IMG/VR virus record: IMGVR_UViG_3300040960_002963
Span: 1 to 50,763 of that record
Reading direction: 5' to 3' (one strand)
DNA length: 50,763 bases
DNA from: a virus
Shown here: positions 12 through 18,900 of the stretch, one piece after another
Layout: every line of letters starts with the position of its first letter
Numbering within the stretch: position 1 is the stretch's first letter
Program-made: the position numbers and the translations under genes
The notes under the pieces: model-generated
What the model was told of the DNA's origin: nothing
Database searches by the model: none
The model's input: the letters and a program-made list of their open reading frames with translations, nothing else

Positions 12-242
12 ATGGATAGTTGGGATCAAGAACTCCTCAAGGAAAACGAACAAAAAGTTCTCAAAGCCGTGAAAATCCTATTTGAAAGCTCTCAGGACAT
101 TGAAATTTTCAACAAAAAAGCTATTTACCTGTACTTGCGGGAATTAACCGACTTGAATACAAAGCAGGTTGTAACGAATCTCAACAAACTGCGAGAAAAG
201 TACAGGGTGTTTAAAAGAAAATGGCACGAGGGAAAGATCTAG
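12..242 (+). CDS. Small winged-helix-like protein, possibly 5'-truncated
   Basis: I do not recognise the family with certainty. The 76 residues are highly charged and mostly helical. The pattern around residues 35-70 (KKAIYLYLREL, then KQVVTNLNKLREKY) fits a helix-turn-helix or small winged-helix fold. The reading frame stays open upstream to base 3 (codons for F-E-E precede the ATG), so the ATG at 12 may be internal and this may be the C-terminal part of a larger protein cut by the window edge. A GAAGAG tract directly before the ATG could be a ribosome site but is too close to be convincing. It overlaps the next gene by 22 bases, suggesting coupled translation. A transcription-accessory role (T4 gp33-like) is conceivable but is only a guess. 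Confidence 0.6.
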   Translation: MDSWDQELLKENEQKVLKAVKILFESSQDIEIFNKKAIYLYLRELTDLNTKQVVTNLNKLREKYRVFKRKWHEGKI

Positions 243-517
243 AGTCCTACATCAAAGAAGCAACAGACAACGTTAGAAAGGATCGCGCAATGACCGATTT
301 TCTTCTAATTGAGCTTTTAAAAGAATTAAAAGAAAAAGGAAACCATCAAGAGTACGGGCTTGTCGCTGCAAAGTACCTAGAGACCTTGCAGAGATCAAAC
401 GAACAACTGGTTAAACTAACCACCCTGATTCAGAAAAAAACAAAAGGTGATGAAGGCTTAACCAGCGAAGATAAGCAAGATCTTTTTGATTTGATTAACA
501 GCCAGGAGTCCTCTTGA
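221..517 (+). CDS. Small helical protein of unknown function
   Basis: This is a 98-residue, strongly charged, predominantly helical protein with no signal peptide, membrane segment or cysteine. Residues 25-75 (LLIELLKELKEKG and AAKYLETLQRSNEQLVKL) have heptad-like spacing of hydrophobic residues, so a short coiled coil or helical bundle is likely. It begins inside the previous gene and ends two bases before the hub gene, whose ribosome site (AGGAG at 504-508) lies within its last codons. The three genes are therefore almost certainly co-transcribed. Position just before a baseplate hub suggests a tail-assembly or chaperone role, but nothing in the sequence proves it. Confidence 0.7.
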   Translation: MARGKDLESYIKEATDNVRKDRAMTDFLLIELLKELKEKGNHQEYGLVAAKYLETLQRSNEQLVKLTTLIQKKTKGDEGLTSEDKQDLFDLINSQESS

Positions 518-518
518 A

Positions 519-3500
519 ATGGCAGATGATCCAAAATCAGGCAACCCCCTAGACTTTGGGTTTGGCGAACTAAACCCGATTGAGCCACCCAGCACTGCCA
601 AGAGCTACACTAGAAGCGATACCAAGTTCTTACCAGCAGTCAGAAAGGCAATTAGAGATGCCTTCACGCCAGATGCAATAACTGGTAATGGCCCATACAA
701 AGCCCTTGTACTGAGAGTCGAGGAAGAACCAGATTCCGATGTTGGCATTGCAGATTGGCTTGTCGGGATGTTTGATGGCCAGAAATCAAACGCTCCAACC
801 TTGGTCAGAATAAAGGCAATGATCCCAGAGCTTTATCCTTTTCCAATTGATAATGGCGATGGAAATTCAGACGGGCCGCACCAACAAGATATCGATATGT
901 TTCCAACTTTCTGCGCTCAAAGCGATTTGGTTCCAGAGCCAGCGGTTGGAGAATATGTTTGGGTTGATTTTGGAAATAAAACAAACTTAACAGACCCCAT
1001 CTACATAAGACCAGTCTTGGAAAAAGAAGGCATGTCCAAGGCTCTTGGCATCGACAAACTAAGAGAAGCCCTAGCTAAAATTGGATGTGGTGGTGGTCTT
1101 GGTGTTGGTGGATCAAGTGGAGACTCGGCAGGCGGTGCAAACAGAGGCGGTGCCTCGCATAAAGGACCACCCCGTGGAGCCAGAGCACAATCTGTCGGAG
1201 AGCCAAAAACAATTAGAGGCCCAGACGCAGAAGAATCATGGTGCAAGTTATGGGAAGAAAGAGCAGAAGCCAACGGGATTCCCATGATAAGCCACTGGTC
1301 AAGATTGCCTTCAAACGGCATGAGAGACTTGCTTGTATTTGCGCCCCTCACAACAGATTTCTCAAAACCTGTTGAACTGGCTTATATTTTTCACGGAGCA
1401 AAGTCGTGGCTCGATAGCGAAAGTTGGACTGGTGAAAATGGAATATATTCAAAAGTCCTCAAACAAATGATCCTAGATGGTAGAAATATTATTTTTGTCC
1501 ATCCCAACCTACCTTGGTCTCTCAAGAAGCATGGCGGAGCAGGAGGCGATAATAGAACGCTGTGGAACGGTGATAAGGGTGGCGACCTCACTGCACTTCA
1601 TGGTGACGTTCTCAATATAATTAAAACCCATTTCTCAGCAGAAGTAAACATAACTTATCTGTCCATAACCAGCCACAGTAAAGGTATCGACGGGCTCGTA
1701 AGGGCAGTCAAAAACGGCGACCACCTAATGGCTTTGAAGCCAGATAAAATCACTCATGGTGATGTATATGGTGCTCATGGTGCCTTTGAGAGTAGAAAGA
1801 TTGTTCACGAGGGTTATGTTGCAAAAGCTGGTAAATATGTCGAAGTAAATGATATTACTCAGATTTTAGGAAAAGCAGATTCTGGTGATGCCGCTGTTGA
1901 GTTTTTTCAAAAAGTGTTGGGAGAGTCTGTCCCAGGTAAAGGCACCAAGCAAATAGCGAAGGGAAACTTTACTTATAATTATGATGCATCTACAAAGAGC
2001 CACAACGCTTTGGCCTTTGATGCCGTAGCTTATTTAGCTCCCGCCCCTCCCGCTCCACCTGCTGCATCTGGTGGCGGAGGCGATGCAAAAGCATTCGATG
2101 GCAACGTTAGTTTGAGTCTGGTTTCGATGTTTGGAACGAGCATGATAGGTGCCGATGCTGAACCTGGTGGCCAAATGGGCAGAGCAGCAACAGACACTCT
2201 TAACAAACTGGGGGCTGGCACTATTGCAAACAAAGGTGTTTGGGGTTCTAATATCAGGCAGTGGCTTGGTGATAGAGATTTCCGCGCCAATGGAAGCCCG
2301 CCTGCACCGAAAGCAGCACAGCAATTTAACGGTGGGCAATCTGGCGTTCAGATAATGTCAACGAATCCGTCAGGAGACGGCAATAAGCCAACACTATATT
2401 GGATTGCAATCAGCAACAACGAATGTCACAGGGGCGAGACAGAAGCAAAAATTGAAGGCTGGTTGGCTGATTGCAAAAAGTTATTAGACATCATGTCCCC
2501 AGATAAATCAATCCCAGTTATTTGGACTGGCCACGTCTATGATGGTGGAGACGATATTTCTTTAAAGTGCCAGAACATGTATAAGGCAATGGACGAGAAG
2601 TTGGTCCCAGAATACAAAAACCTTCTCTTTTTGTGGCCGAACACAGACCCATTAAAAGAAATTTATTTGTCTCACACAAGAAACGTCAACAACTTCAACG
2701 CAAAGCTTCACCCTCCAAAAGAAGTGCATCAAAAGTTTCTAGATGCAAGAATGGGCGAGATTACAAAGTTTTTGGGTGTTGGCGCTAGTGCAGGCTCCGC
2801 ACCACCAGAAGACAATAAAAACGCAAGCCCGACACCAGAAAAAATACCAGCAGAATCAAACAGTAGGGGTGATGCTGGTGGAGACGAAGAACTAGCTCAA
2901 GTCTGTCATGTTATAAACGACATATTGCAAGTGGTTATGCAGTCCAGAGTCAACGCCTCTCAAGGCATTTTAGACTCAAATACCGATACCACACAACTGA
3001 TAGATTTGATTGCTCAGTTAGATCACAACCCAACTTATATCGAGCAACTTAAAAATGTTTATCAGCAACTACAAGCAGATCAGCATGTATCCGAGAACAC
3101 AAGTTCTTTGGAGCCTGCACCAACTCTAGAGATAGCACTATCACAAATAGTTCAAGATGAGAATGCTCTAGACAGAATAGAGCAACTTTTGAGGCCAAGA
3201 ACTGCATCTGATAGTGGAACATCAAGCCTCGGAGATGTTGCGACTTGCAGAAATAAAAATGGTGAATTTATTTTAGCGAATCTTAAAAACAATCCAGACG
3301 GCACAAATAAAACAAATCATAAAGACGGTGAAAAAAGCAATGCAGATGATGGATCACCGTCTGAAAGAGCCGCAACCTCTTCAACAGAAGAAGAATCAGA
3401 AAAGAAATCAAGCGGAGAATCAATAAAGTTTTTAGATCTGTTAGAAGATTTGAGCACTATAATTGGCCTCCCACCAAAGCTTTTCCTTGCCATAATGCGA

Positions 3501-5213
3501 ATAGAGTCAGGTGGGGTAACTTTCTGCCCAAGCAATGGTAAGCCGATAGTGAGATTCGAGCCACACTTGGTGTTTAAAAAAGATTTCTACAGAACAAGGT
3601 GGACAGTCTCAGATGCAGATGCAGAAAAAGCAAAACAATTACCTTGGCATGGATGCGGAGGCACTAGTTGTAAGTCTTGGAAAGATTTTATTGGTTTTAC
3701 TGGAGGCTCTAGAACATCAAGATGCGAAGCAATAGAAAAGAACTTCAAAGGAATTCCAGTAGGAGTCAACTGGGATGAGGAATATGAAAAAGGTATTGTC
3801 AAGTCCATAAAGGCAATCGAAGATCTTGGAATACCAAATCTAGATGCCACCGAGGTTGTCTACATGGCTAGCAGTTTTGGCGCAGGTCAAACAATGGGCT
3901 TTTTGCATGATTTTGGAAAAATAAAAAATACAAAGATACCTGGTCTAAAATACGATAGTGCCAAAGATCTTGTCAAAGCCTATATGGCGTCTGAAGTCGA
4001 GCAAATAAGGGGCTTGTATGCCTTTGTTGAAGGCAAGCCTGGCATGGTGTCAGCAGCAAGGAAGTGCGTCCAGAGTGGAGACTGTATGAAGTTGGGCAAT
4101 CTGTATAACGGATGCAAGCCTCCAAACTGTAGATGGGCGGATAAAATGAAAGACTTCCTCAACTCCACTCCAATGCCAGAGAATAGAGAGTTGATAAACG
4201 ACGCCTCTCAACTACCAAGCGGAACTGGTGGTAGTGCCATCGGCCAAGGCTCAAGAAGCAGTGGTGGCTCTGCTGGTACTAGTTGCGGAAGAGGCGGCGG
4301 TGGCGGATCAGGAGGATCGGGCGGCGGCGGTGGCTTGGGAAGTGTTGGCGGCGCAAAACTAGAAACAAAAGGAGATTTTGTGGCAGGCAATTATGCACCA
4401 CCAAACCCAGATGGTCTATATCCGTCAATCAAGCCATCCATATCTGGAAACTGGCGGTCACTAATGGCTGTTTATGGACCACCGAAAGATATCGCATCAA
4501 ACCTTGTGACCATAAATTTTCTAGGCGCTTCAAAAAAAGTTCATCGCCTTGCACAAGATGCATTTAAAAAAGTTAATGATGAGATAAATGCACTTAGAGG
4601 CAAGAGCCAAGAGGTTGCAAACTATAAATTTGTAGTAGGTGGCACTTTTGTGCCTAGGTGTATCAAGAATAGAACCTCAAAACACCCAGAATGTAGACCT
4701 CCCAAGTTCAATCAGGCCGCAGCAACAAAAGCTTTTCCAAATTGTGGAAACTGTGGAGTATCTACTCACGCATACGGTCTTGCTATAGATATAAACGCAA
4801 CTACAAACCCTTACTCCACAAAGGCGCAGGGGTTGATAACCGATATTCCAAAACTAGTTGTTGGGGCATTTAAAAGATATGGGTTTAAGTGGGGTGGAGA
4901 TTGGAACAACCCAGACGCCATGCACTTTGAGTGGAGAGGAGACCCTGGTGAAAGATCAGATTCAGCAGGAGAGGTTGGGAGCTTGCCGGGAAGCTCTGAT
5001 GATGATGCTGCCGCAAACTCATCATCTCTAGATGATCCGGCTAATTTCTCAAGCCAACCGCAGTCAACAGATGATAGCTCTGCATCAAGCAGCCAGCCAC
5101 CAGCACAATCATCTGGTGAATCTTCCGGTGGTGAATCTTCATCATCTAGCAGTGAAGCACCAGCACAATCGTCCAGCAGTAACTGCGACCCTTCAGTGGT
5201 GTCTTGTCCTTGA
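519..5213 (+). CDS. gp5: Giant multi-enzyme baseplate hub/tail lysin (gp5-like)
   Basis: This 1564-residue protein appears to carry five modules. Residues ~55-170 resemble the gp5 N-terminal OB fold of the T4 hub. Residues ~240-500 look like an alpha/beta-hydrolase, with an HGA oxyanion-type strand near 292 and a nucleophile-elbow-like S-H-S-K-G at 385-389. Residues ~525-755 resemble an SGNH hydrolase: G-T-S at 539-541, an S-N-N-E block, and L-H-P at 730-732. Residues ~970-1210 match phage N-acetylmuramidase (PF11860 type), with R-I-E-S-G-G around catalytic-type E996. Residues ~1311-1478 match M15 D-Ala-D-Ala carboxypeptidases, with zinc-ligand pattern S-T-H1417...D1424 and M-H1469-F-E-W. Gly-rich linkers separate modules, and residues ~1480-1564 are a Ser-rich tail. 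Muramidase and M15 calls are strong; the two hydrolase calls are weaker. T4 gp5 (575 residues) carries only one lysozyme domain. Likely role: membrane-puncturing hub that digests the cell envelope at infection. Confidence 0.88.
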   Translation: MADDPKSGNPLDFGFGELNPIEPPSTAKSYTRSDTKFLPAVRKAIRDAFTPDAITGNGPYKALVLRVEEEPDSDVGIADWLVGMFDGQKSNAPTLVRIKAMIPELYPFPIDNGDGNSDGPHQQDIDMFPTFCAQSDLVPEPAVGEYVWVDFGNKTNLTDPIYIRPVLEKEGMSKALGIDKLREALAKIGCGGGLGVGGSSGDSAGGANRGGASHKGPPRGARAQSVGEPKTIRGPDAEESWCKLWEERAEANGIPMISHWSRLPSNGMRDLLVFAPLTTDFSKPVELAYIFHGAKSWLDSESWTGENGIYSKVLKQMILDGRNIIFVHPNLPWSLKKHGGAGGDNRTLWNGDKGGDLTALHGDVLNIIKTHFSAEVNITYLSITSHSKGIDGLVRAVKNGDHLMALKPDKITHGDVYGAHGAFESRKIVHEGYVAKAGKYVEVNDITQILGKADSGDAAVEFFQKVLGESVPGKGTKQIAKGNFTYNYDASTKSHNALAFDAVAYLAPAPPAPPAASGGGGDAKAFDGNVSLSLVSMFGTSMIGADAEPGGQMGRAATDTLNKLGAGTIANKGVWGSNIRQWLGDRDFRANGSPPAPKAAQQFNGGQSGVQIMSTNPSGDGNKPTLYWIAISNNECHRGETEAKIEGWLADCKKLLDIMSPDKSIPVIWTGHVYDGGDDISLKCQNMYKAMDEKLVPEYKNLLFLWPNTDPLKEIYLSHTRNVNNFNAKLHPPKEVHQKFLDARMGEITKFLGVGASAGSAPPEDNKNASPTPEKIPAESNSRGDAGGDEELAQVCHVINDILQVVMQSRVNASQGILDSNTDTTQLIDLIAQLDHNPTYIEQLKNVYQQLQADQHVSENTSSLEPAPTLEIALSQIVQDENALDRIEQLLRPRTASDSGTSSLGDVATCRNKNGEFILANLKNNPDGTNKTNHKDGEKSNADDGSPSERAATSSTEEESEKKSSGESIKFLDLLEDLSTIIGLPPKLFLAIMRIESGGVTFCPSNGKPIVRFEPHLVFKKDFYRTRWTVSDADAEKAKQLPWHGCGGTSCKSWKDFIGFTGGSRTSRCEAIEKNFKGIPVGVNWDEEYEKGIVKSIKAIEDLGIPNLDATEVVYMASSFGAGQTMGFLHDFGKIKNTKIPGLKYDSAKDLVKAYMASEVEQIRGLYAFVEGKPGMVSAARKCVQSGDCMKLGNLYNGCKPPNCRWADKMKDFLNSTPMPENRELINDASQLPSGTGGSAIGQGSRSSGGSAGTSCGRGGGGGSGGSGGGGGLGSVGGAKLETKGDFVAGNYAPPNPDGLYPSIKPSISGNWRSLMAVYGPPKDIASNLVTINFLGASKKVHRLAQDAFKKVNDEINALRGKSQEVANYKFVVGGTFVPRCIKNRTSKHPECRPPKFNQAAATKAFPNCGNCGVSTHAYGLAIDINATTNPYSTKAQGLITDIPKLVVGAFKRYGFKWGGDWNNPDAMHFEWRGDPGERSDSAGEVGSLPGSSDDDAAANSSSLDDPANFSSQPQSTDDSSASSSQPPAQSSGESSGGESSSSSSEAPAQSSSSNCDPSVVSCP
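5098..5170 (+). repeat. Ser/Gln/Pro-rich low-complexity repeat in the hub tail
   Basis: A 13-base word (CACCAGCACAATC) occurs at 5098-5110 and again at 5158-5170, 60 bases apart. A shorter word, GGTGAATCTTC, is duplicated between them. They encode the P-A-Q-S-S units of the Ser-rich C-terminus of the hub protein. The pattern suggests local duplication in a flexible tail rather than a mobile element. Confidence 0.6.
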
Positions 5214-5231: not shown

Positions 5232-6164
5232 ATGAGCGTTGGAAAAAAAGCAATAGACATAGCGGGACTAGATAAAAAAATCAGTGCCTATAACTCAAGG
5301 CTAAATAGAAGCTCTCTGGTCTTCAACAAAGGCATAGGTGGGGACAAGTTGCTGGAGCCTGTCCCAAACTATTTGAAATCGCCATGCGAGAAAGAAATCG
5401 CAAATGAAAACAACGCCTCTATAATTTTGGGAAGGGATAGGCCAGCGAGCAGGCTTAGTGGCTATGGGGGCAAAGGCGATACTCAAGCTGCATCAATAGA
5501 TATAGTTGTCGGCAGGATGGGGCCAACACCAAGATCTGTTGATAACATGGGAAGAAAAATATTTGTTGACCCAAACTTCAAATTAGACTCCGCAAGAATC
5601 CACATAAGTCAGAAGACTGATGTTGATCAAAATTTTGAACTAGCCTCTGGCATGGTTGGAAACTCAAAAACAAAATCTGCTATCGCTATGAAGGCAGATG
5701 GCATCAGGATAATAGCAAGAGAAGGCATAAAACTAGTTACGAGGACAGATAAAAGAAATTCTCAAGGCGGAATGGTTGAGAGCCTATCAGGAATAGACTT
5801 GATCGCAGGAAACGACGATTCAGACCTACAGCCAATTCCAAAGGGCACAAACCTTGTTGACGGGCTAAAACAACTCACACACCATTTGGACAAGTTGAAC
5901 GGCATTGTTGATGCTTTTTTGACCGCGCAGATGGAGTTTAACGAAGCTTTGACGCACCACACTCATGTGTCTCCGTTCTTTGCTTTGCCAACGACACCAT
6001 CTCTTACACTAGTCCCAAGTGGCGTGAAAACAATGATAAACCAATTATCACAAGCAAAGGTTTCTTTGATGATGCACAAGGCAAACTTGGTAACTTTTAA
6101 ATTTAGTTATTTTGAACCGTCTGGGGCTAGATTTATAAACAGCAGATACAACCACACGAATTAG
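5232..6164 (+). CDS. Spike-like baseplate protein with HxH motif
   Basis: This 310-residue protein begins 18 bases after the hub gene, with GAGGT just upstream of the ATG. Residues ~150-180 alternate hydrophobic and polar residues (AMKADGIRIIAREGIKLVTR), as in the intertwined beta-helix of gp5/VgrG/gpV-type spikes. Near the C-terminus it has T-H-H-T-H (H243-T-H245) followed by a Pro/Thr stretch. HxH near the tip of short-tail spikes (P2 gpV, Mu gp45 type) binds iron in an octahedral site. I infer that it supplies the trimeric piercing needle that T4 builds from the gp5 C-terminus, with the upstream gene supplying hub and enzymes. It has no signal peptide or membrane segment. A less specific baseplate role is the alternative. 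Confidence 0.6.
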   Translation: MSVGKKAIDIAGLDKKISAYNSRLNRSSLVFNKGIGGDKLLEPVPNYLKSPCEKEIANENNASIILGRDRPASRLSGYGGKGDTQAASIDIVVGRMGPTPRSVDNMGRKIFVDPNFKLDSARIHISQKTDVDQNFELASGMVGNSKTKSAIAMKADGIRIIAREGIKLVTRTDKRNSQGGMVESLSGIDLIAGNDDSDLQPIPKGTNLVDGLKQLTHHLDKLNGIVDAFLTAQMEFNEALTHHTHVSPFFALPTTPSLTLVPSGVKTMINQLSQAKVSLMMHKANLVTFKFSYFEPSGARFINSRYNHTN

Positions 6165-6173
6165 GTATAACAC

Positions 6174-9100
6174 ATGGCAACCAAAAAATTAGAAGCTAGA
6201 ACAAGCGTCGAGGCACCAAGAGTTGAAGCTAGTGCTGGAGCGGAGGCTTCAATTCCAGATTGGACAAAAGCCGATCATAGAATACCAAGACTCGACAAAT
6301 ACAGAAAAGAATATTTAATTTGTGTAAAGACTAGATATACATCTACAGGCGGTGATCTATTTGATTCAAGGCTTAGAGAAGCCGCAACTCAGGGTGTCGA
6401 ATCGCTTTTGGAATACTACAACAAGCAGTTAACGGCGGCTAGTGAAGTGGACCCGTTTGGCATTGTTGAGCAATTGCTTGGCCACGCAGAGATAAGAGAC
6501 TGGCATCTCGATCCTCGACCAGGTTGCGGTGGAAAATTAAAAGTTTTAATTGCAATCTCCGCACCCGTCTTTGATTCAATACCAGAAGAGCTTCAAGATC
6601 TTAGAAAACTAGCCAGAGATGCGGTCAGGACAATAACCTTAAACACTTCCAAACTAAAAAGGCAAATAAAAATTGCCTCCAGAGAGCTAAAGAAATATTC
6701 ACGACAAATTAAGAAGTGGCCGGGAACAGTAAAAAATCTTGATTTAGAAAAAGAAGCGGAAAGACTAGAGAAGGTCATACCGGCACTTAAAAAGTTTTTA
6801 AAAGAAAACGACAAGACCTATCGAGAAGACCATGAAGACCACATAGAGATAGGCTTTGGTGCAGACTTTAGCATAGACTACATTGTTGCATTCAGTTCGC
6901 CGGGGCAGAATTTGACCAAGGGCATCTCAACAATCAACGAGATCTCGCCGTTTTCAAGACCAAGAACTATGGGGCTCCTATATTACATCTACGATATTGA
7001 GAGTGCTTCAAAAACAAATATGCCTTGGACTCAGTTCTGCACAAACTTTATTTATCCAGTTCCAGATATCAGGCCAGGGCAAATACCATCGCTGGGTGCA
7101 AATCCAATGGGTGCCCTTGACAGGGTAACAGATTCCCTAAACAAAAATCCAATCAAGACCCTGCCTGACTTGGAGATGGAGAATCTAAAATTAAATGATG
7201 TCTCACTAAAGCAGCAGCTTTTTGAGGTTCGCTCTCAAGCAGTTGATTTTATAGGCGATTCTTTGTTGCAAAACCTGAGAGAGGTTATCGAGGAGATAGA
7301 GAGCCTTGATGATGTTTTCGAGAAGCTTTTAAATAAAGTTGATCTCTCGACCATCTCAGGACAAGCGATGAACTTTCTTGCTAGCCAAGTGCCAACGCTT
7401 GATTTCATAAGCTCAATGACAATGGGAATACTCTCAAACTTGGAGTTCGGAGATCTAAAAAATATAATCCTCCCGCAGTTCCCAAGCGACATCTATGACA
7501 AAATCATGGAGGAAGTCTATGGCTTAGACTTTAACCTTTCAGGCATAGAAGGCTTCGATGGTTCATTCTTTGAGCTTTACACAAAGTTTCAGGATTTGTC
7601 TTTGATCACCAAAGAAGACATAATCATGCTTATCAGAAATGCCATGCCAGAAGAAAAAGTTTTTCTTTTGACGATAGACGGCCTTAAAAGCCCCAGCTTT
7701 GATGTAAAGTGCTTGCCCACCGAGGTGATGAATGAGTTTTTAAGAACCGCACTTGAAAACGATATTGAGCTTGGGATCGATATAATGAACCCTAGTCTCG
7801 ATACAGATGCACTGACTGGTGAATTCACGAGGATTTTAGAGAACCTATCTGTGGACGCATTGAGGGGTCTTGTCTCGAATCTAAGAAGACAACTGGTGTT
7901 TGAAGTCATAGCTTGTATTCCACTAGACAGACTGCTAGAGCTACTAGACCTGCCGAGCTTGATAATCAATTTTAAATTCAAATTTAATATTCCCGACTTG
8001 GATTTTGAAAGAGAAAAAAGATTAATATTGAGAGCGATTGAGTTGTATGGCGATTTAGAAGAGTTGTTTGAAAAGTTGCCTGATTTGTTGCCAAACATCA
8101 ACATCCCAAATATCGATATACCCGATCTGCCAAAGATTCCAAGTCTTGATATACCAGACTTGTCTATGGACTTTTCGATCCCAAAGATCCCAAAGATCCC
8201 TTCTTTTGAAATAGCTGAGATGCCGACATTCGATTTAAATGTTGACCTCCCAGCACAGATAACAACAGCAATCACAGACATGCTTGAAGAGTTGCTGATT
8301 GACACAAGCAAAAATGTTTTAATTGACTTGCTCGACTATATTGAAGACATGGGCTCATCTCTGGATGGGAATGTAAATAATTTTGATTTTGATTCTCCAA
8401 GAATAGGCGATCTTCTTTCTGACTCTGTTTCCACCACCAAAGTAGATCGAACTGAGCCTGAAACTTTCGACGACACGAGCACAGCCACAGGAAAGTTCCC
8501 ATCAGAAGCCATAGACAAGATCTTGGACGATATGGAGCTTGATGTCGAATATGTATCTGAGGACGGAGAGGTCTTATCGGGCGGCGCTTCTAGGACGCCA
8601 GAAGAAAGAACCAAGAGAAGAACAAAAAGATTTTTCAAAAGAAGAAGCGCCTCTAAAAACAAAAGGTTTCACAGGTTCATAGACCAGATAAGCCAGTCTC
8701 TGACAAGAAGAGAGCTTGGCAACCTCTTAGAAGGCAAGGCCAAGAGGGAAGTTCTTGAAACTGCAAAAGATTGTGCAGAGGACAACGACATAGAAGAATT
8801 TGTTGATGATTCTGTTATTTTGGATTTTTTTGATAATATTGGAAAAAATGTTGATCCCCTGATCTTGGCAGGTTTAAAGTTGCCTTCAAAGAAGTTGCCG
8901 ATATTTGTGCCGTCATCACCGACTTCAAGACTGCCAGAAATCACTTTGTGCAACAATGGAGACTTGCAAAAGATAATAGGTCTCTTGAGTGAAAAGGCTG
9001 GCAATATTACGCGAGAGCAAATAGAAGAAGCAGCCAGCAAAATCATAAATCGCAAAAAACAAAAAATTAAAAACTTGTCTTACTTGTCATCGAAAGACAA

Positions 9101-12100
9101 TCTCCTTGAGGGAATGAACGAACTCTCAGTTTTTGACGGCCCAAACAGGCTGGTTAAGAACGACCCAACTTCTCTTAGATATTTGACCAAGAAGACGATT
9201 AATACGATCTTTACCAGCGCAGAGAACGCAATCTCTATAGACTTGGGCAGCGCATATGAAAACTTTATAAGGCTAGAAGATGTCCCCTACGTTGAAAACC
9301 AAGACTACTTCCTAAGCCCTCAGATGGAGCGAGAAGATCCACAGAGATACAGGGAGTTGAAGAACGAAAAAGAAAATTCTTTTAAATCCATAGCAAGAGT
9401 GTCACCAGAAGTCTACGATGCACTTAGGAGCGATCTTCTCCTCAAATCCAGAAATCTTGATTCAGGCGATGGGTTTGTTAATAGAAGCCGATCACACGTC
9501 TACGAAATAAAGATTCCGTCAATGATAAATGAGCCAGAGATTAGGAGTCGATTGCAAAAAGAGATCAATGATCTTGAAAATAAAATTTTAAAGCAGTCCA
9601 AGGACTTTATGAACACGCCAATAAGAGATATTGGCGACACTGCCAAGCAGAGATTTGAGCAGGAAAAGGAAGAGCTTAGAAATAGAAAGGAGCGACTAGA
9701 CCAATTCAGCATAAGGGAGTTCGGTGGATCTGCAATTAAAATAAAACTAAATTATGAATCTGTTGGAAACAGTTGGGATGTTATACGCGATAGGCTCGAT
9801 GTTGATGTCGATGATTTTGGCTCGTACAAAACATCAGACACGCTTAAAGACGACCCGAAACTACTAGAGGACTTGTCAAGATATGAACTAAGGTCGGAAG
9901 CCCCAGCCCAGCAAGAAGTGTTTGCAAGAATTTTTATGGACTCTCTCTTGTCTTTGAGGGACACATACAGTGCCGCTGACTCTTGCGACCCAGAGCAGGG
10001 CTTGTATTACACTTTTCTTGACCAGTATTATCACTCCATATTCTTGAACACTCTTGGCAAGTTTGTAAGAGAAGTGGCAAAGTCAGAGTTTTTTCAAATT
10101 GGACCGTTCCAAGACTTAATGACATCCATTTCGATGTTGGGCATGGAGCAAGAAACAGCAGGACCAGACGGCTTTGTTGATGATCAAGAGTCTTATCAAA
10201 ATAATTATTTTATAGACATCGAGTCTGTCAAGGACAAGGTCGAGAGGCGCTACAAAGAAATAAGGGACAAAGATGGTATAGCTTCGGACTCCCTAACCAA
10301 GGCCAGCATTGAAGGTGTCCTTGAGTCGTTTATAAAGGTTCTCGGCGCTGATGTTTTAATGAGGGGCATTTTTGGCTTCTCGGTATATGACGACAAGTAT
10401 GTCTTCGAAGATCCTCTTTTTGAGGAGGTCGTATCGGATCTAGTGTACGGTGAGTTGCTGAAAGATAGCGGTATGGAGAGAGTGTTTGCAAAAGAATTAA
10501 AAAAAGCTGTCTCTTTTGCGAAAAGAAATGTCGTTAAGATGACCGGAAAGCCAAGAGTTCAGCAAGAGATGGCATCACTTTCTCACGAGCACTACAAGCA
10601 GATAATCGAAGCGATAACATCTGCCATAAAACAACTCGAACTGAGTGATGATGAATACGCAAAATGCGTGTCCCTGAAAGACAGATTAACAGGCGGCACG
10701 TTCAACCCTAGACACCACTTTATAAGAACTGTTGACTTGTGGAAGCCTACGGACCCTGGAGAGCACTTCTATATAGCTCCAGCGGGATTCGCACAAGATC
10801 CAAACTCAGCAGACAGGTCTACTTCTGGAAAATTCTCAAAAGACCTTGTGGAGTCAATAGGTGCAGGTGGAATGACAGGCTTTGTTTACGAGAAATACAT
10901 CTCAGTGCAGGGCTACACTAAGCGAGAGCTTAAAGATATGGGCCACCACAGGACAGTAGTCAACAGACTCTACGAAGACTTTGGGGGAGAAAAAAAGATT
11001 TTCAACCTTGATGAGTTTGAAGATTATTTAAAAGACCTCGGCTCATCCGAACTATTAAGGGGTAATGATAGATGGAGGAGAAGAAAGCTAAGCTCATTTT
11101 TTAAATCTATTGATTTTGGAATAAGACTTTCTTTTGTTGATGCTGGTAACAAAGCCCTGTATGACGAGATAGCAAAGTCAAACAAAGAAGATAGAAGAAA
11201 GCCAATTGCTGTAAGAGAAAATGCGGGAACAGCGATGAATGGCGGCATAACTAGATCGCAGGGCTTGGTCATAATCCCGCTTATCAGCGCAGAAGAAACA
11301 GCAAGCTTTGCCCTACCAGAGTCCCTGATTGGGTCGCAAGCACTTGAGAACAATCCAGAATTAAAAAGAAACGTCATTGACATGAAGTTCTTGGACATCT
11401 TAAATGCGATAACAACTAAGAGACTAGATGGCAGTGGAAGATTTTTAAGAATCTTCAAGCACAGAGAGGTTGCGTTAAAGGACATCATTTACAATGATCC
11501 AAAATTCAATGCTTTGTTCAATTTCTCATTCCCAACAAAGAAGTTTGTTTCAATAGCGATATTGTATTCCGTCTTTGCGCTAACGAGGGTGGAACAAGAA
11601 AAAAGTTTCTTTATGAACACTAGGGAGTCTTTGAGGATGCTCTTGAGAACCCTCATGGGCATAAGCGATTTTCAATATGAAGACGACCTGATAAGAGAGC
11701 TTGGTGGCCTATCTGGCTTCCTTAAAAGACAGATGAATCTAGCTGGCATAGACGGCTCTCTTCCAAACCTTGCTGCCATCGCTGCGAAGACGCCACTTTA
11801 TATCCTGAAGGGCCTAGTCGAAATAACAGATCCGAATATTTCGATATCCAGCAAGATGGTTAAGGCAGCAGAATTGATCGGAGAAGAATACCCAGGCGGT
11901 TCAACTGGTGCGGCGATGAGCTTGTTGCCAGTCAATGTTTTCCCACCACCACCATTTGGACCGGGAATTGGGCCTCCGATAACACCACCTGGGTTTGTTT
12001 ATTTGGCTTTCGACGGGGTTAGAACTCCGTATGAGAGGGCCAAAAGAAATATGAGCAGGAAAGACAGAAAGCGAGTAGAGGAAGCCGAAAAAATGGCTGA

Positions 12101-12248
12101 AGAAATCGCAAAAGAAGAGTCCGAGCGCATAGCAGAAGAAATAAAAGACGAAGTTACGGAAAGAGCACAAGAGTACTTCGATAGATTTGTAAATGGATCT
12201 GATTCAACTGGCACCTCCGAGGTCGCCCCTGAAGACCCATGTGATTAG
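6174..12248 (+). CDS. Giant (2024-residue) structural protein of unknown fold
   Basis: I do not recognise this protein. Its size and its place between spike and gp25 genes imply a baseplate or tail component. Residues ~150-225 are charged and helical, probably coiled coil. Residues ~640-690 form a striking run of short I-P-x/D-I-P units (DIPDLPKIPSLDIPDL type), a possible extended or left-handed helix. Residues ~805-835 are very basic (RTKRRTKRFFKRR). The C-terminus has a proline stretch (FPPPPFGPGIGPP) and then an acidic/basic charged helix. No catalytic motif, signal peptide or convincing transmembrane segment is visible. It starts 9 bases after the previous stop with only a weak ribosome site. 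A wedge/hub connector or a tape-measure-like role cannot be distinguished; the lack of a long uniform helical pattern argues against a classical tape measure. Confidence 0.75.
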   Translation: MATKKLEARTSVEAPRVEASAGAEASIPDWTKADHRIPRLDKYRKEYLICVKTRYTSTGGDLFDSRLREAATQGVESLLEYYNKQLTAASEVDPFGIVEQLLGHAEIRDWHLDPRPGCGGKLKVLIAISAPVFDSIPEELQDLRKLARDAVRTITLNTSKLKRQIKIASRELKKYSRQIKKWPGTVKNLDLEKEAERLEKVIPALKKFLKENDKTYREDHEDHIEIGFGADFSIDYIVAFSSPGQNLTKGISTINEISPFSRPRTMGLLYYIYDIESASKTNMPWTQFCTNFIYPVPDIRPGQIPSLGANPMGALDRVTDSLNKNPIKTLPDLEMENLKLNDVSLKQQLFEVRSQAVDFIGDSLLQNLREVIEEIESLDDVFEKLLNKVDLSTISGQAMNFLASQVPTLDFISSMTMGILSNLEFGDLKNIILPQFPSDIYDKIMEEVYGLDFNLSGIEGFDGSFFELYTKFQDLSLITKEDIIMLIRNAMPEEKVFLLTIDGLKSPSFDVKCLPTEVMNEFLRTALENDIELGIDIMNPSLDTDALTGEFTRILENLSVDALRGLVSNLRRQLVFEVIACIPLDRLLELLDLPSLIINFKFKFNIPDLDFEREKRLILRAIELYGDLEELFEKLPDLLPNINIPNIDIPDLPKIPSLDIPDLSMDFSIPKIPKIPSFEIAEMPTFDLNVDLPAQITTAITDMLEELLIDTSKNVLIDLLDYIEDMGSSLDGNVNNFDFDSPRIGDLLSDSVSTTKVDRTEPETFDDTSTATGKFPSEAIDKILDDMELDVEYVSEDGEVLSGGASRTPEERTKRRTKRFFKRRSASKNKRFHRFIDQISQSLTRRELGNLLEGKAKREVLETAKDCAEDNDIEEFVDDSVILDFFDNIGKNVDPLILAGLKLPSKKLPIFVPSSPTSRLPEITLCNNGDLQKIIGLLSEKAGNITREQIEEAASKIINRKKQKIKNLSYLSSKDNLLEGMNELSVFDGPNRLVKNDPTSLRYLTKKTINTIFTSAENAISIDLGSAYENFIRLEDVPYVENQDYFLSPQMEREDPQRYRELKNEKENSFKSIARVSPEVYDALRSDLLLKSRNLDSGDGFVNRSRSHVYEIKIPSMINEPEIRSRLQKEINDLENKILKQSKDFMNTPIRDIGDTAKQRFEQEKEELRNRKERLDQFSIREFGGSAIKIKLNYESVGNSWDVIRDRLDVDVDDFGSYKTSDTLKDDPKLLEDLSRYELRSEAPAQQEVFARIFMDSLLSLRDTYSAADSCDPEQGLYYTFLDQYYHSIFLNTLGKFVREVAKSEFFQIGPFQDLMTSISMLGMEQETAGPDGFVDDQESYQNNYFIDIESVKDKVERRYKEIRDKDGIASDSLTKASIEGVLESFIKVLGADVLMRGIFGFSVYDDKYVFEDPLFEEVVSDLVYGELLKDSGMERVFAKELKKAVSFAKRNVVKMTGKPRVQQEMASLSHEHYKQIIEAITSAIKQLELSDDEYAKCVSLKDRLTGGTFNPRHHFIRTVDLWKPTDPGEHFYIAPAGFAQDPNSADRSTSGKFSKDLVESIGAGGMTGFVYEKYISVQGYTKRELKDMGHHRTVVNRLYEDFGGEKKIFNLDEFEDYLKDLGSSELLRGNDRWRRRKLSSFFKSIDFGIRLSFVDAGNKALYDEIAKSNKEDRRKPIAVRENAGTAMNGGITRSQGLVIIPLISAEETASFALPESLIGSQALENNPELKRNVIDMKFLDILNAITTKRLDGSGRFLRIFKHREVALKDIIYNDPKFNALFNFSFPTKKFVSIAILYSVFALTRVEQEKSFFMNTRESLRMLLRTLMGISDFQYEDDLIRELGGLSGFLKRQMNLAGIDGSLPNLAAIAAKTPLYILKGLVEITDPNISISSKMVKAAELIGEEYPGGSTGAAMSLLPVNVFPPPPFGPGIGPPITPPGFVYLAFDGVRTPYERAKRNMSRKDRKRVEEAEKMAEEIAKEESERIAEEIKDEVTERAQEYFDRFVNGSDSTGTSEVAPEDPCD

Positions 12249-12258
12249 GAGAAAATAA

Positions 12259-12651
12259 ATGCCACAAGGAATATCACCAAAACTACCACTCAGCATAGAT
12301 TCGGAAGACGGCAAATACACCCTGAATAAGACGCTCAAAGAGGCGATAGCACAAAATTTAAAAAACCTTGTGCTGACAGCCCCAGGCGAAAGGATAATGA
12401 ATCCAGATTTTGGCGTTGGAATCAGGAACTATCTGTTTAGGGAAAACTCAACCCAACTCTACTCAGAAATAGAAGGCAGAATAGTAACTCAAGTTGGCTT
12501 ATTCATGCCGTTCTTGAAGATTTCAAACGTGAAGTTTATTTCTTCTCTTGATGATCCTGTCAACATTTCCGATAACGCCATTTATATTACAATTTTCTAC
12601 AACATCATTCCCCTCGGCTCCAACGATAGATTAGATTTATTACTTCAGTAG
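12259..12651 (+). CDS. gp25: Baseplate wedge subunit gp25-like
   Basis: At 130 residues this is the normal length for the gp25/GPW family, whose members join wedge arms to the sheath in contractile tails. The family signature is visible in the centre: N-L-K-N-L-V-L-T-A-P-G-E-R, then N-P-D-F-G-V-G-I-R-N-Y-L-F, then the strand/helix ending in V-G-L-F-M-P-F-L. Despite the old lysozyme-like label of this fold it is structural. A strong AGGAG ribosome site lies just upstream (TTAGGAGAAAATAAATG). It sits directly before gp6, its physical partner in the wedge, which supports the call. Confidence 0.93.
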   Translation: MPQGISPKLPLSIDSEDGKYTLNKTLKEAIAQNLKNLVLTAPGERIMNPDFGVGIRNYLFRENSTQLYSEIEGRIVTQVGLFMPFLKISNVKFISSLDDPVNISDNAIYITIFYNIIPLGSNDRLDLLLQ

Positions 12652-12686: not shown

Positions 12687-14486
12687 ATGCCCAACAATAA
12701 GAAAGCCGTAGCGGTAAAGTACACCAGTAGAGACTTTCAGTCGATAAAAAACGATCTGATCGAATACTCCAAGAGATATTACCCAGACACATTTAAAGAT
12801 TTTAACGAAGCGTCCTTTGGAGCCTTGATGCTCGATACTGTTGCTTATGTTGGCGACATGTTGTCTTTCTATCTAGACTATCAAGCAAACGAAAGCTTTC
12901 TTGATACAGCAGTAGAGTTCGACAACATTGTCAAGTTGGGAAGGCAATTAGGATTTAGATTTAAGGGCACCCCTTCGACCTACGGAACAGTTAGCTTATT
13001 TATTAAGATACCAGCAGCCTCAAATGGATTAGGACCGAACTATTCGTATGCACCAGTCTTGCTTAAAGGAACACAGTTTACATCTGGTGGAGGAGCAGGA
13101 TTTATTTTAAATGAAAATGTTGACTTCTCAGATACAAACTTAGAGACAGTCGTAGCAGAAGTAAATCAAGACACTGGCCTTCCAACATCTTACGCCATAA
13201 AAGCATACGGCCAAGTTATCTCAGGCAGAATTTTTGAAGACATTATCTCGGTTGGCGATTTTCAAAAGTTTAGAAGAGTCAGGCTGTCAGGCAGAAACGT
13301 CACCGAAGTCATAAATGTTTTCGACTCAGAGGGTCACGAATATTTTGAGGTCGAATATCTATCTCAAAATATTATTTTTAAAGAAATCCCAAATCACGAT
13401 TCCAATAGAGAAACAACACCATTCTTGTTGAAGCCTCAAGTTGTTCCGAGAAGATTTATTGTCGAGCAAGGCAGAGTCGATACTTTCTTGCAATTTGGAC
13501 ACGGTTCAGAAGATGAGCTTACAACCGACAGCCAAATAGAGCCAACAAACGTGGTCCTCAACATGTACGGCAGGGATCATGTAACTGATCAGTCTTTTGA
13601 TCCAAATAAGCTTTTGCAAACAGACAAGTTTGGTGTTGCACCATCCAACACATCATTGAGAATAATTTATCGCTCAAACACAGCCAGCTCGGCCAACGTG
13701 GCAGCAGAAGCTTTAAATAAAATTGTAACGCCCTTGTTTAAGTTCAGAGAATCGGAATCTTTGGTCAGGAGGCTGAAATCGAGTGTCATAACCTCGCTAG
13801 AAGTGTCGAACGAAGAACCGATAGTCGGCAGCATCTCACTCCCAACAAGTGAAGAGTTGAAAAAAAGAATTTTTGATACCTTCTCGTCTCAAAACAGAGC
13901 AGTCACAAAGCAAGACTATATAAGCCTGTGTTATTCGATGCCAAGTAAGTTTGGCGCTGTCAAGAGAGCAAATATTGTTCAAGACAATGATTCGTTCAAG
14001 CGCAATCTAAATCTTTATGTTGTGTCGGAAGCGGTAGACGGTAGTTTGGTGAAAACAAACACCACATTAAAAAATAACTTAAAAATTTGGTTAAACAGGT
14101 ACAAAATGATGAACGATTCCATCGATATCCTTGATGCAAGGATCGCCAATATCGGAATCAACTTTGTGATCGTTCCAGAGAGAGAAAAAAATAAATTTGA
14201 TATATTGGCAGCGGCGTCTGCTGTATTGAGAAACAAGATGTCCATCTCTAATGATGTTGGATCGCCATTTTATGTCACCGACATCTACAAAATCCTTAAT
14301 GATGTGAGCGGTGTTGTAGATGTCGTTGATGTCACGATAGAAAGAAAAATAGGATCGAATTACTCAACGACATCTTTCGATATAGACGAGCACATGTCAC
14401 TAGATAGGCGCTATATCAGAGTACCAGAAGACGTTATATTAGAAGTTAAATTTCCAAGAACGGATATCCAAGGAGCAGTCGTCTAA
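12687..14486 (+). CDS. gp6: Baseplate wedge subunit gp6-like
   Basis: This 599-residue protein resembles T4 gp6 (660 residues), the baseplate-J-related core of each wedge that forms the ring around the hub. The opening residues are characteristic: K-Y-T-S-R-D-F, then F-N-E-A-S-F-G and L-D-T-V-A-Y-V-G-D-M-L-S-F-Y-L-D-Y, the conserved N-terminal helix pair. Later segments such as K-Q-D-Y-I-S-L and P-S-K-F-G-A-V (~residues 410-430) match the baseplate-J core. GGAGG at 12673-12677 precedes the ATG. The gene ends in TAATG, shared with the next start, so the two are translationally coupled. Confidence 0.92.
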   Translation: MPNNKKAVAVKYTSRDFQSIKNDLIEYSKRYYPDTFKDFNEASFGALMLDTVAYVGDMLSFYLDYQANESFLDTAVEFDNIVKLGRQLGFRFKGTPSTYGTVSLFIKIPAASNGLGPNYSYAPVLLKGTQFTSGGGAGFILNENVDFSDTNLETVVAEVNQDTGLPTSYAIKAYGQVISGRIFEDIISVGDFQKFRRVRLSGRNVTEVINVFDSEGHEYFEVEYLSQNIIFKEIPNHDSNRETTPFLLKPQVVPRRFIVEQGRVDTFLQFGHGSEDELTTDSQIEPTNVVLNMYGRDHVTDQSFDPNKLLQTDKFGVAPSNTSLRIIYRSNTASSANVAAEALNKIVTPLFKFRESESLVRRLKSSVITSLEVSNEEPIVGSISLPTSEELKKRIFDTFSSQNRAVTKQDYISLCYSMPSKFGAVKRANIVQDNDSFKRNLNLYVVSEAVDGSLVKTNTTLKNNLKIWLNRYKMMNDSIDILDARIANIGINFVIVPEREKNKFDILAAASAVLRNKMSISNDVGSPFYVTDIYKILNDVSGVVDVVDVTIERKIGSNYSTTSFDIDEHMSLDRRYIRVPEDVILEVKFPRTDIQGAVV

Positions 14487-15997: not shown

Positions 15998-18900
15998 ATG
16001 AGCATCAAGAATCTTTTTGATAGAACCAGCGACTCTAAAAAATTAGCCTCAAAATCAGTACAAGAACTAACTAGCTCAATTGAGTCGGTTGAATATGTCG
16101 AAGAGTTTACCAAGGCGAGGGATCGCCTCTTGCCCAACCTCGATTTTAGCAAGCCTGCTAATTTTGCAAGATTTGGCTCCGCAGAGCAATATTACGTTGA
16201 CTCTATCGAGAGAATTCAAAAACAATACCCATATGACGGCTCATTTAAAGAAAAGCTTGAGTGGCACAACAACTCAACGAACATCGATAAATATATTTTT
16301 GAGAAAGAGTATCCAAGAACAAACGGATTCGCAATATTCTCAGCCGATGGTTGGGGCACTCAGGCTGCCGTTTTAGCAGAATACGGCCAACCATCAAGCG
16401 AAGAGTATATAGAAACGAAAGGTGGTCCTCATGCAGGTAGCGGGAACACTCTAAAGGGCTTGTTTCCACTGCCAACTTCTCAAAAAGCCTTGGGGCCTTT
16501 CTCAAACGTCCTAGATGCAGAAGAGACCAGAGAAAGCAACCTTCAGTTTGATTTAAAAAATAAAGGTGCGACAGTTGAATTCTGGCTGAAAAAAGACGGA
16601 TTCGACACGGCAAAGACAGAAAAGGAAGTCATCTTTGACCTCTGGAATGGGGAAGCCTCCTCAAGTTCTGGATTTGGCAGGATGACGATAGAATTATCAG
16701 GCACAGCCGCCTCCGAGTCTCCTTTTTATGTCACGGTTCAATCTGGAACTGCTGGCTGTTTTAACCAGCAAATTGGCTCCTCTATCGCAGGCACTGGCTC
16801 ACTACAAGAATGGAATCACTATGCGATTAGCTTTGCCAGTGCCAGCAGCGGCATCAGCACCAAGTTTTATGTCAACGGTGATTTAAACCAGTCTACTGTG
16901 TTGGGAACCTCTGGGATCGACGAGGTCACAGGATCACTAATTTCTTTTATTGGTGCCCTGCAAACTTCTCCATCCGGCAGCACCTTTGATGGCACAGACA
17001 TGGAAGGCTGGGGCAAGCTATCCGGCTCCCTAGATGAGTTTAGGTTTTGGAAGACTAGAAGGACATCTGAAGAGATTGGCAGATTTTGGTTTACCCAGCA
17101 TGGCGGTGGAACCAATACCGATACTTCAAACACAGACCTTGGCATTTATTATAAGTTCAACGAAGGCATCACCGGCTACAACAATACAGATGCAAGTGTT
17201 CTTGACTATTCTGGTCGAATTTCAAACGGCACATGGACCGGCTATACATCCAACTCAAGAAATACTGGCTCTGCAATCGTGTTGGCATCGGCAGCAGCAA
17301 CAGAGTTTAAAGATCCAATCATCTATGCGGATCACCCATCTGTTGTTTCATTGCTGGCGGAAAAGAAAAGGCTTGGATCGAGTCACGACTACTCTAACAA
17401 CGCCTCGATCTACCACACAATGCCAAATTGGATTGTGTCGGACGAGGAAGAGAAAGAAGGGACAAATCTTTTAAAGCTCACGCAGATCATTTCAAGCTAC
17501 TTCGACACCGTCTACTCTCAGATTGAATTTCTTTCAAAGGTCAGGGACGTGGATTATGGCACTGGCAGCTTCAATAAACCATTGCCGTTTTCAAATAAAT
17601 TATTAGAATCGGTCGGCTTAGTAGCACCAGACATATTTGTAGATGCAGATGTTCTCAACCAACTTTCAAATAGAGATGAAGACAGGGAGTTTGAGGCCGA
17701 CTTAAACGATATTAAAAACTCAATTTACAAGAACATCTACAACAACATCTCGTTCATCTACAAGTCCAAGGGCACAGAGAAATCTATTCGCAACTTGATA
17801 AGATGTTTTGGTGTTGATGACGAACTAGTCAAGCTTAGCCTCTATGGCAACAACATAACTCACTTATTGAGAGACAATTATAGAGTCTCTTCAATAAAAA
17901 AGAATTATGTGGACTTCAACAACACTGACAGGTTTGGCGGAACGGTTTATCAATATGCACCTGCAAACGCTTTTGGTGGTCCACCCGATGGCACCCTGCC
18001 ATTCATTGCTGCTCACGAAGCATCTGGCTCATCCATCACTGCACAGGCAGAAGTCATATTCCCAAAGAAGTTTGACCAGTCCTCTGTATTTTACTTTGAG
18101 ACACCATTTTTAACTTCTTCTCTATTTGGCATGCACACCGCCATCGACGATTCTGGTGCAACTGTTGACGGCTATCTTGCAGGCGAAGTTAACGCTACTT
18201 GGGGCTCTCCTGACTATGCCAACTTCCAAGTCTATGCAGTTAGAAAAGAGCTTGAAAGCGAAGATGCTTATTTTATGCTCACCTCGTCGGTTGCGGGCAT
18301 CCCAACCCTGACATCTTCTTTTTATTTAGATGTCTACAACAACCAGAAATGGAATTTTGCCGTAAGGCTGAGACCTGAAAAATACCCTCTTGTGGATACT
18401 GTTCACGGCAGCACTGGGTCTTATGTTATCGAATTTACCGGCATGTACGCTGACCTTGGTGTTGTTATTGAGCAGTTCACAGTAACAGGCTCGGTGTCAG
18501 AGGCAGATGGAGATGATTTCTTAACGAGCCCAAAGAGACTTTATGTTGGTGCCCACAGAACCAACTTTAGCGGCTCGGTTCTCCAAAATTCTGATGCAAA
18601 GATCTCGTCTGCTAGGGTATGGGTTGACTATCTTTCAAACGAAGTTCTTGAGATGCACGCAAAAGATGCCTCAAGCCACGGCAGGTTGAACCCATACAAA
18701 AACATGTCCTATTATCAGAGCACGCTGGACGACTATCACATCCCAGAGATAGAAACTCTTGCTCTGAATTGGGACTTTGAGCAAGTAACTCAGTCGGACG
18801 CTTCTGGTGAGTTTACTGTTGTTGACGTATCATCTGGCTCCGCAGAACACCAGCAAAGATACGGCTGGCTTGGAGACATAACAAAATTAAAACATCCAGG

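Follow-up and report, generated by a model that had tools for sequence, protein, structure and literature searches.

A predicted multi-enzyme tail hub protein of an uncultured phage within a family of hubs with exchangeable cell-wall hydrolase cargo

Wall-cutting domains on phage tails and dual-domain virion lysins are already known. The gp13 protein of phi29 is one such dual-domain virion-associated lysin. Staphylococcal HydH5 is another (PMC3150257). In T4, the gp5 chain of OB domain, lysozyme and beta-helix is cleaved into gp5* (OB domain and lysozyme) and gp5C (beta-helix) (PMC3004832). SGNH domains are known in tail fibres (PMC11058221), and shuffling of domains has been described for tail proteins and endolysins (PMC10684548). 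Our literature search found no gp5-type hub with a muramidase, an M15 peptidase and two esterase-like modules. This is the combination that the original prediction had read from one long open reading frame, setting it beside T4 gp5 as a single oddity.

The window, that is the whole stretch of DNA analyzed here, is a linear viral contig of 50,763 bases from IMG/VR. The open reading frame, P0001, begins with ATG directly downstream of CAGGAG, and its product is the longest among the hubs collected (the others span 192–1517 aa). Features of P0001 and of the baseplate genes beyond it were as follows:

519..5213, + strand: hub protein P0001, 1564 aa (ORF and translation)
519..1043, + strand: OB-type hub domain common to the hub family, residues 1-175 (iterated HMM, PDB profile search, hhalign)
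1044..1199, + strand: linker, mostly Gly/Ser-rich, residues 176-227 (composition)
1200..2063, + strand: alpha/beta-hydrolase (CE1/esterase-D-like) module, residues 228-515, candidate triad S387, D415, H495 (AF2, Foldseek, VIA, triad co-occurrence)
2091..2834, + strand: SGNH/GDSL-like module (likely), residues 525-772, candidate S541, N634, H731 (motif blocks, low-confidence model)
2835..3425, + strand: linker or spacer, residues 773-969 (no Pfam match above cut-off)
3480..4160, + strand: predicted N-acetylmuramidase PF11860, residues 988-1214, catalytic E996 (Pfam, hub alignment)
4224..4388, + strand: Gly/Ser-rich linker, residues 1236-1290, 75% G+S+P+T+A (composition)
4758..4934, + strand: predicted M15 peptidase core PF13539, residues 1414-1472, H1417, D1424, H1469 (Pfam, PDB sequence match)
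4950..5210, + strand: Ser-rich acidic tail, residues 1478-1564, ending CDPSVVSCP (composition)
5232..6164, + strand: putative separate spike/tip protein, 310 aa (family alignment, position next to hubs)
12259..12651, + strand: gp25-like baseplate protein (BLASTP)
12687..14486, + strand: gp6-like baseplate wedge protein (PHROG, tblastn)

Four modules of P0001 (OB, alpha/beta hydrolase, muramidase and M15) are supported, and the fifth, SGNH-like module is likely. Pfam at E ≤ 10 gave no match for the N-terminus or for the two middle domains, so a family of relatives was needed to identify them; a search of viral contigs with the whole of P0001 also gave no match. Viral-contig searches were seeded with the gp6-like protein, then with the 310-aa protein, plus the alpha/beta module, and the gene directly upstream of the 310-aa homolog in each contig was taken as the hub. 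This gave at least 133 non-redundant hubs, of which 130 are complete; the median length is 616 aa (range 192 to 1517) and 39 reach ≥1000 aa. These counts are not a census because each scan contributed its 80 top-scoring matches. In 50,697 GenBank phage records, tblastn with representative sequences of the N-terminal domain and the 310-aa protein gave no match, although gp6 relatives do occur there. A scan of genome contigs found two loci only, neither giving a safe host. Separately, we noted OB-type, lytic-transglycosylase-like and spike-like genes at 5601-8850 of a bacterial MAG chromosome (L210; CP070664.1, WOR-3 MAG). Here the OB domain and the enzyme are separate genes, and the genes adjoin runs of N; either the element is integrated or the assembly is chimeric.

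The hub family consists of an OB-type N-terminus followed by exchangeable, largely cell-wall-hydrolase cargo. Pfam scans of 88 hubs found VanY (24), Amidase_2 (16), M15_4 (7), M23 (5) and muramidase (5), with DUF2272 (3), CHAP (2), SLT (2) and GDSL (1) as rarer cargo. Combinations included an amidase with M23 (L113), and the alpha/beta module with VanY and an amidase (L120), while some short hubs had no recognizable cargo and OB-only hubs of about 195 aa were seen at the same locus position. A muramidase plus an M15-type peptidase, as in the window protein, recurs on the OB hubs L153 and L140. The view of P0001 as a lone exception beside T4 gp5 was thus not borne out; it is instead one extreme of a large hub family with exchangeable enzymes. 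In nine hubs (L087, L088, L109, L113, L117, L129, L141, L148 and L175) a recurrent module lies after the OB domain and before the amidase, M15 or M23 domain, at roughly residues 230-560. With its motifs GIVADPEA... and WWSY it reads like a TIM-barrel glycoside hydrolase, and Pfam gave no match there in L087 and L113. An NlpC/P60- or CHAP-like segment (GGIDCSGF) was apparent in L110, L131, L133 and L136, with none from Pfam in L133.

The two C-terminal enzymes are the clearest parts of P0001. Pfam placed Muramidase PF11860 at 988-1214 (E = 5e-11; 43.6 bits, cut-off 22.3) and Peptidase_M15_4 PF13539 at 1414-1472 (E = 3.5e-17; 63.2 bits, cut-off 25). E996 lies within RIESGG and, like RFEP, is invariant in the alignment with the hub muramidases of four relatives. 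In the muramidase AP3gp15, Glu101 is the single catalytic residue, and 99.4% of activity was lost in E101A (PMC5674055). The M15 metal ligands H1417, D1424 and H1469 lie within STHAYGLAID...MHFEW, and the closest PDB sequences to this domain were L-Ala-D-Glu peptidases (2vo9, E = 2.2e-6; LysB4, 3.8e-4). Both family identities are firm at the level of sequence, and all four residues are where the original prediction had put them.

For the first middle domain, an AlphaFold (AF2) model of residues 228-515 built with 29 sequences reached a pLDDT of 84.4 and a pTM of 0.86. Foldseek matched the model to alpha/beta hydrolases (best E = 1.3e-6) and VIA-align 2 (hereafter VIA) gave Z scores of up to 13.7 over 213 residues, for a feruloyl esterase, a clear structural match to hydrolases. 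The nearest structures were feruloyl, enterobactin and other CE1/esterase-D-like enzymes. In model numbering, S387 sits at the turn from strand 150-159 into helix 160-171, which is the helix following the central strand; D415 comes directly after strand 183-187, and H495 falls after the last strand and before the last helix. The alpha/beta-hydrolase-like module that had been proposed for this region is thereby upheld, with a complete candidate triad. Among 29 aligned relatives, Ser, Asp and His were present in 5/5 triad-Ser rows extending over all three columns, and His was absent in 5/5 non-Ser rows that reach the His column (Ser/His co-occurrence, 1 in 252, exact test computed by hand). Position and co-occurrence together point to an intact S387-D415-H495 candidate triad in the window module. 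Because the three residues occur together and are lost together, the window copy looks active and most relatives' copies dead.

In 23/29 aligned relatives the nucleophile Ser is replaced (Gly, Asn, other). Since most of these modules lack the nucleophile, the alpha/beta fold can persist without this catalysis, and the Ser-less modules appear to be pseudo-esterases kept by the hub family. Relatives of 228-515 were found at 33 loci, and at 27 of these an OB N-terminus was detectable; as the search seed was taken from hubs, this does not show the module to be confined to hubs. Against GenBank phages, tblastn with the two middle domains gave no match. A possible though doubtful alternative is that the enzymes of P0001 are the muramidase and M15 peptidase only, the alpha/beta and SGNH-like modules being dead scaffolds or binders of envelope polysaccharide. 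The loss of the nucleophile in most relatives speaks for it, as do the persistence of the module, its presence in two copies in five hubs (L187, L194, L196, L199 and L205), and the absence of the block-V Asp from the SGNH-like module. However, the alpha/beta module of the window has the full set of Ser, Asp and His, and these residues co-occur in five sequences, which argues against a dead copy there.

The second middle domain, residues 525-772, had been read as SGNH-like, and this received moderate support. Four motif blocks occur in order (FGTS at 538-541, WGSN at 575, ISNNE at 631-635 and LHP at 730-732) and supply Ser541, Asn634 and His731, whilst the block-V Asp position is occupied by Ala728. 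We therefore call the region SGNH-like rather than a member of SGNH/GDSL. Some CE2-type SGNH enzymes work without the block-V Asp. A model was made from two sequences, the helper row being a recognized GDSL module from L251 (Pfam E = 3.8e-5, below its cut-off); its N-terminal part alone was used because the His block was misplaced in multi-row SGNH alignments. The model had a pLDDT of 49 and a pTM of 0.49 and, with a GDSL module as its only helper row, may be biased towards SGNH. Foldseek gave no match to it at E ≤ 0.001, the highest probabilities being those of SGNH enzymes (CE2 2wao, 0.75; PAF acetylhydrolase 3dt6, 0.66). In VIA, 40-odd of the best 50 rows were SGNH/GDSL esterases, covering model residues 8-232, with a best Z of 8.7 over 179 residues for a GDSL esterase and 7.5 for a peptidoglycan O-acetylesterase; at this pLDDT the structural match is weak.

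Residues 525-772 are probably an SGNH module. It is unlikely, with about a one-in-a-few chance, that they form another Rossmann-like or an unrelated domain, which would leave P0001 with four modules rather than five. Besides the low confidence of the model, that reading draws on the lack of any sequence relative in viral contigs, in GenBank phages (tblastn) or in Pfam at E ≤ 10, and a PDB sequence search returned chance matches alone. Comparisons with the SGNH modules of other hubs were at most marginal (hhalign probability <1%, not significant; Smith-Waterman shuffles, Z of 2.6 at best) and we therefore do not claim homology to them. Against it stand the ordered blocks and the mostly SGNH structural matches over model residues 8-232, as well as the finding that the motif pattern matched 5/20,000 shuffles; this last point is biased evidence, since the pattern was composed with the sequence in view. 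Five other family proteins (L251, L104, L213, L100 and L253) have SGNH-like motifs or GDSL matches in Pfam, with no detectable OB domain in L100 and L253. A viral-contig search seeded with L251 returned its own contig alone.

The N-terminal domain was detected in 104/133 non-redundant hubs by an iterated profile HMM. A 60-sequence profile of this N-terminus, searched against all PDB sequences, gave phage Gp5 (9vzk, E = 0.046) as best match along with VgrG (0.43, 0.53). With hhalign against 13 T4-type gp5 OB domains or N-termini, the hub profile scored a probability of 70%, below the usual 95%, with E = 4e-5 over 77 columns and strands in register, compared with 0.2% for a control profile. A PHROG scan of the OB domains gave no match. 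By profile comparison, residues about 1-175 of P0001 are a gp5/VgrG-type OB domain, in keeping, at the sequence-profile level, with the gp5-like OB fold first proposed. A C-terminal triple beta-helix is absent from the same chain, which ends in the Ser-rich tail. Given this tail, and given that the putative spike is the next gene, P0001 resembles gp5* rather than full-length gp5. In one relative (G005, the record of L043, 14132-15987; L089), two adjoining genes in tandem, whose open frames encode 457 and 452 aa, both have the OB-type N-terminus.

Gene order downstream of P0001 is the 310-aa gene, a 2024-aa gene, the gp25-like gene and the gp6-like gene, a synteny of hub, spike, large protein, gp25 and gp6 that marks the cluster as the baseplate region of a contractile tail. 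By BLASTP the gp25-like protein matched a Mel-JY01 protein annotated as tail lysozyme (7e-11) and an immuto protein annotated as baseplate assembly protein (4e-8). The gp6-like protein matched a PHROG baseplate wedge family (6.6e-19) and, by tblastn, Mel-JY01 (1e-82) and the immuto baseplate wedge protein (1e-81). The 310-aa gene is the conserved partner directly downstream of every hub collected. Two members of its protein family match a PHROG family of baseplate proteins (best E = 0.0024); the 310-aa protein had no PDB match, and its identity as the spike is putative. The OB profile matches together with the gene order support a gp5/gpV-type hub, and we infer a virion location for P0001 from the synteny and the OB domain. 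Two further stretches of the window (6174-12248 and 15998-25105) encode very long tail-cluster proteins (2024 and 3035 aa) that are poorly conserved between relatives. At the contig start, a truncated frame (1-220) resembles the end of a 235-aa, perhaps late-transcription sigma-like protein encoded two genes upstream of the L211 hub, and a gene of roughly 100 aa lies just before the hub in both the window (221-517) and L211.

It is very unlikely that P0001 is a soluble endolysin or another tail protein, e.g., a tape measure, with lysis domains. In favor of this are the PHROG matches of its C-terminal half, most of them to endolysins, and the M15 domains seen in Rhizobium phage proteins annotated as tape measures. 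Against it stand the N-terminal Gp5/VgrG-type profile, the fixed place directly before the putative spike gene and ahead of gp25 and gp6, and the OB-only hubs of about 195 aa at the same position. On synteny and the N-terminal domain we rejected the idea that it is simply an endolysin.

P0001 is, with good probability, a modular multi-enzyme hub subunit of a contractile tail, and its esterases may make O-acylated wall accessible to the muramidase. The gp5/gpV-type OB domain would dock P0001, as a trimer by analogy with T4, at the tip of the tail tube, above the spike encoded by the next gene, so that the two halves of T4 gp5 (OB plus enzyme, and beta-helix) would here be split into separate genes. 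Flexible Gly/Ser linkers would bear the two ester hydrolases, the muramidase and the M15 peptidase. Sheath contraction, again by analogy with T4, would drive the hub into the envelope, where three copies of the chain would present the enzymes. The esterases may then strip O-acyl groups from surface polysaccharide or peptidoglycan; glycan strands would be cleaved by the muramidase and stem peptides by the M15 domain. Lysozymes are sterically blocked when MurNAc is O-acetylated at C-6 (PMC6174289), which makes it reasonable for a muramidase to have esterases as neighbors. A bolder and tentative version casts the hub family as a general platform for multiple, exchangeable enzymes, on which the ester hydrolases of the window de-O-acylate peptidoglycan or its decorations in cis, unblocking the muramidase at the puncture site.

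If this multi-enzyme reading is right, phages of a large uncultured lineage carry at the tail tip envelope-matched enzyme assemblies rather than single lysozymes, and the wall chemistry of unknown hosts could be read from hub cargo. Having esterases together with a muramidase bears on whether phages overcome O-acetylated wall during entry. Because one conserved position holds both intact and dead esterase modules, the family also offers a natural experiment on catalysis versus binding.

Compared with known systems, P0001 is like T4 gp5 in that an OB domain at the N-terminus precedes a muralytic domain and the gene lies near gp6 in a baseplate cluster. It differs in that its muralytic enzyme is PF11860 rather than a T4L-type lysozyme, in its three further modules, and in the putative spike being a separate gene. 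The muramidases AP3gp15 and 10gp110 share the Pfam family PF11860 (DUF3380) with P0001, and motif and domain alignment place Glu101 of AP3gp15 at the position of E996; both muramidases are soluble modular endolysins, whereas the P0001 muramidase would ride on a tail hub. CE1-type esterases (8bbp, PfeE 6gi1, XynY 1gkk) have the same fold as the model of 228-515, with Ser, Asp and His at equivalent topological places, although identity to the feruloyl and enterobactin esterases is 7-14%; the acid comes after a strand that lies earlier in the fold than the one it normally follows in CE1. The low-confidence model of 525-772 resembles CE2 2wao and O-acetylesterase 4k3u in fold (Z of 8.3 and 7.5) and the region has the block order of SGNH enzymes, but it differs from SGNH/GDSL esterases in having GTS instead of GDS and no block-V Asp, at 6-13% identity. 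Finally, HydH5 and phi29 gp13 resemble P0001 in carrying more than one wall-cutting domain per virion protein; in contrast to P0001 they have two domains and no added esterases, and are not gp5-type hubs of contractile tails.
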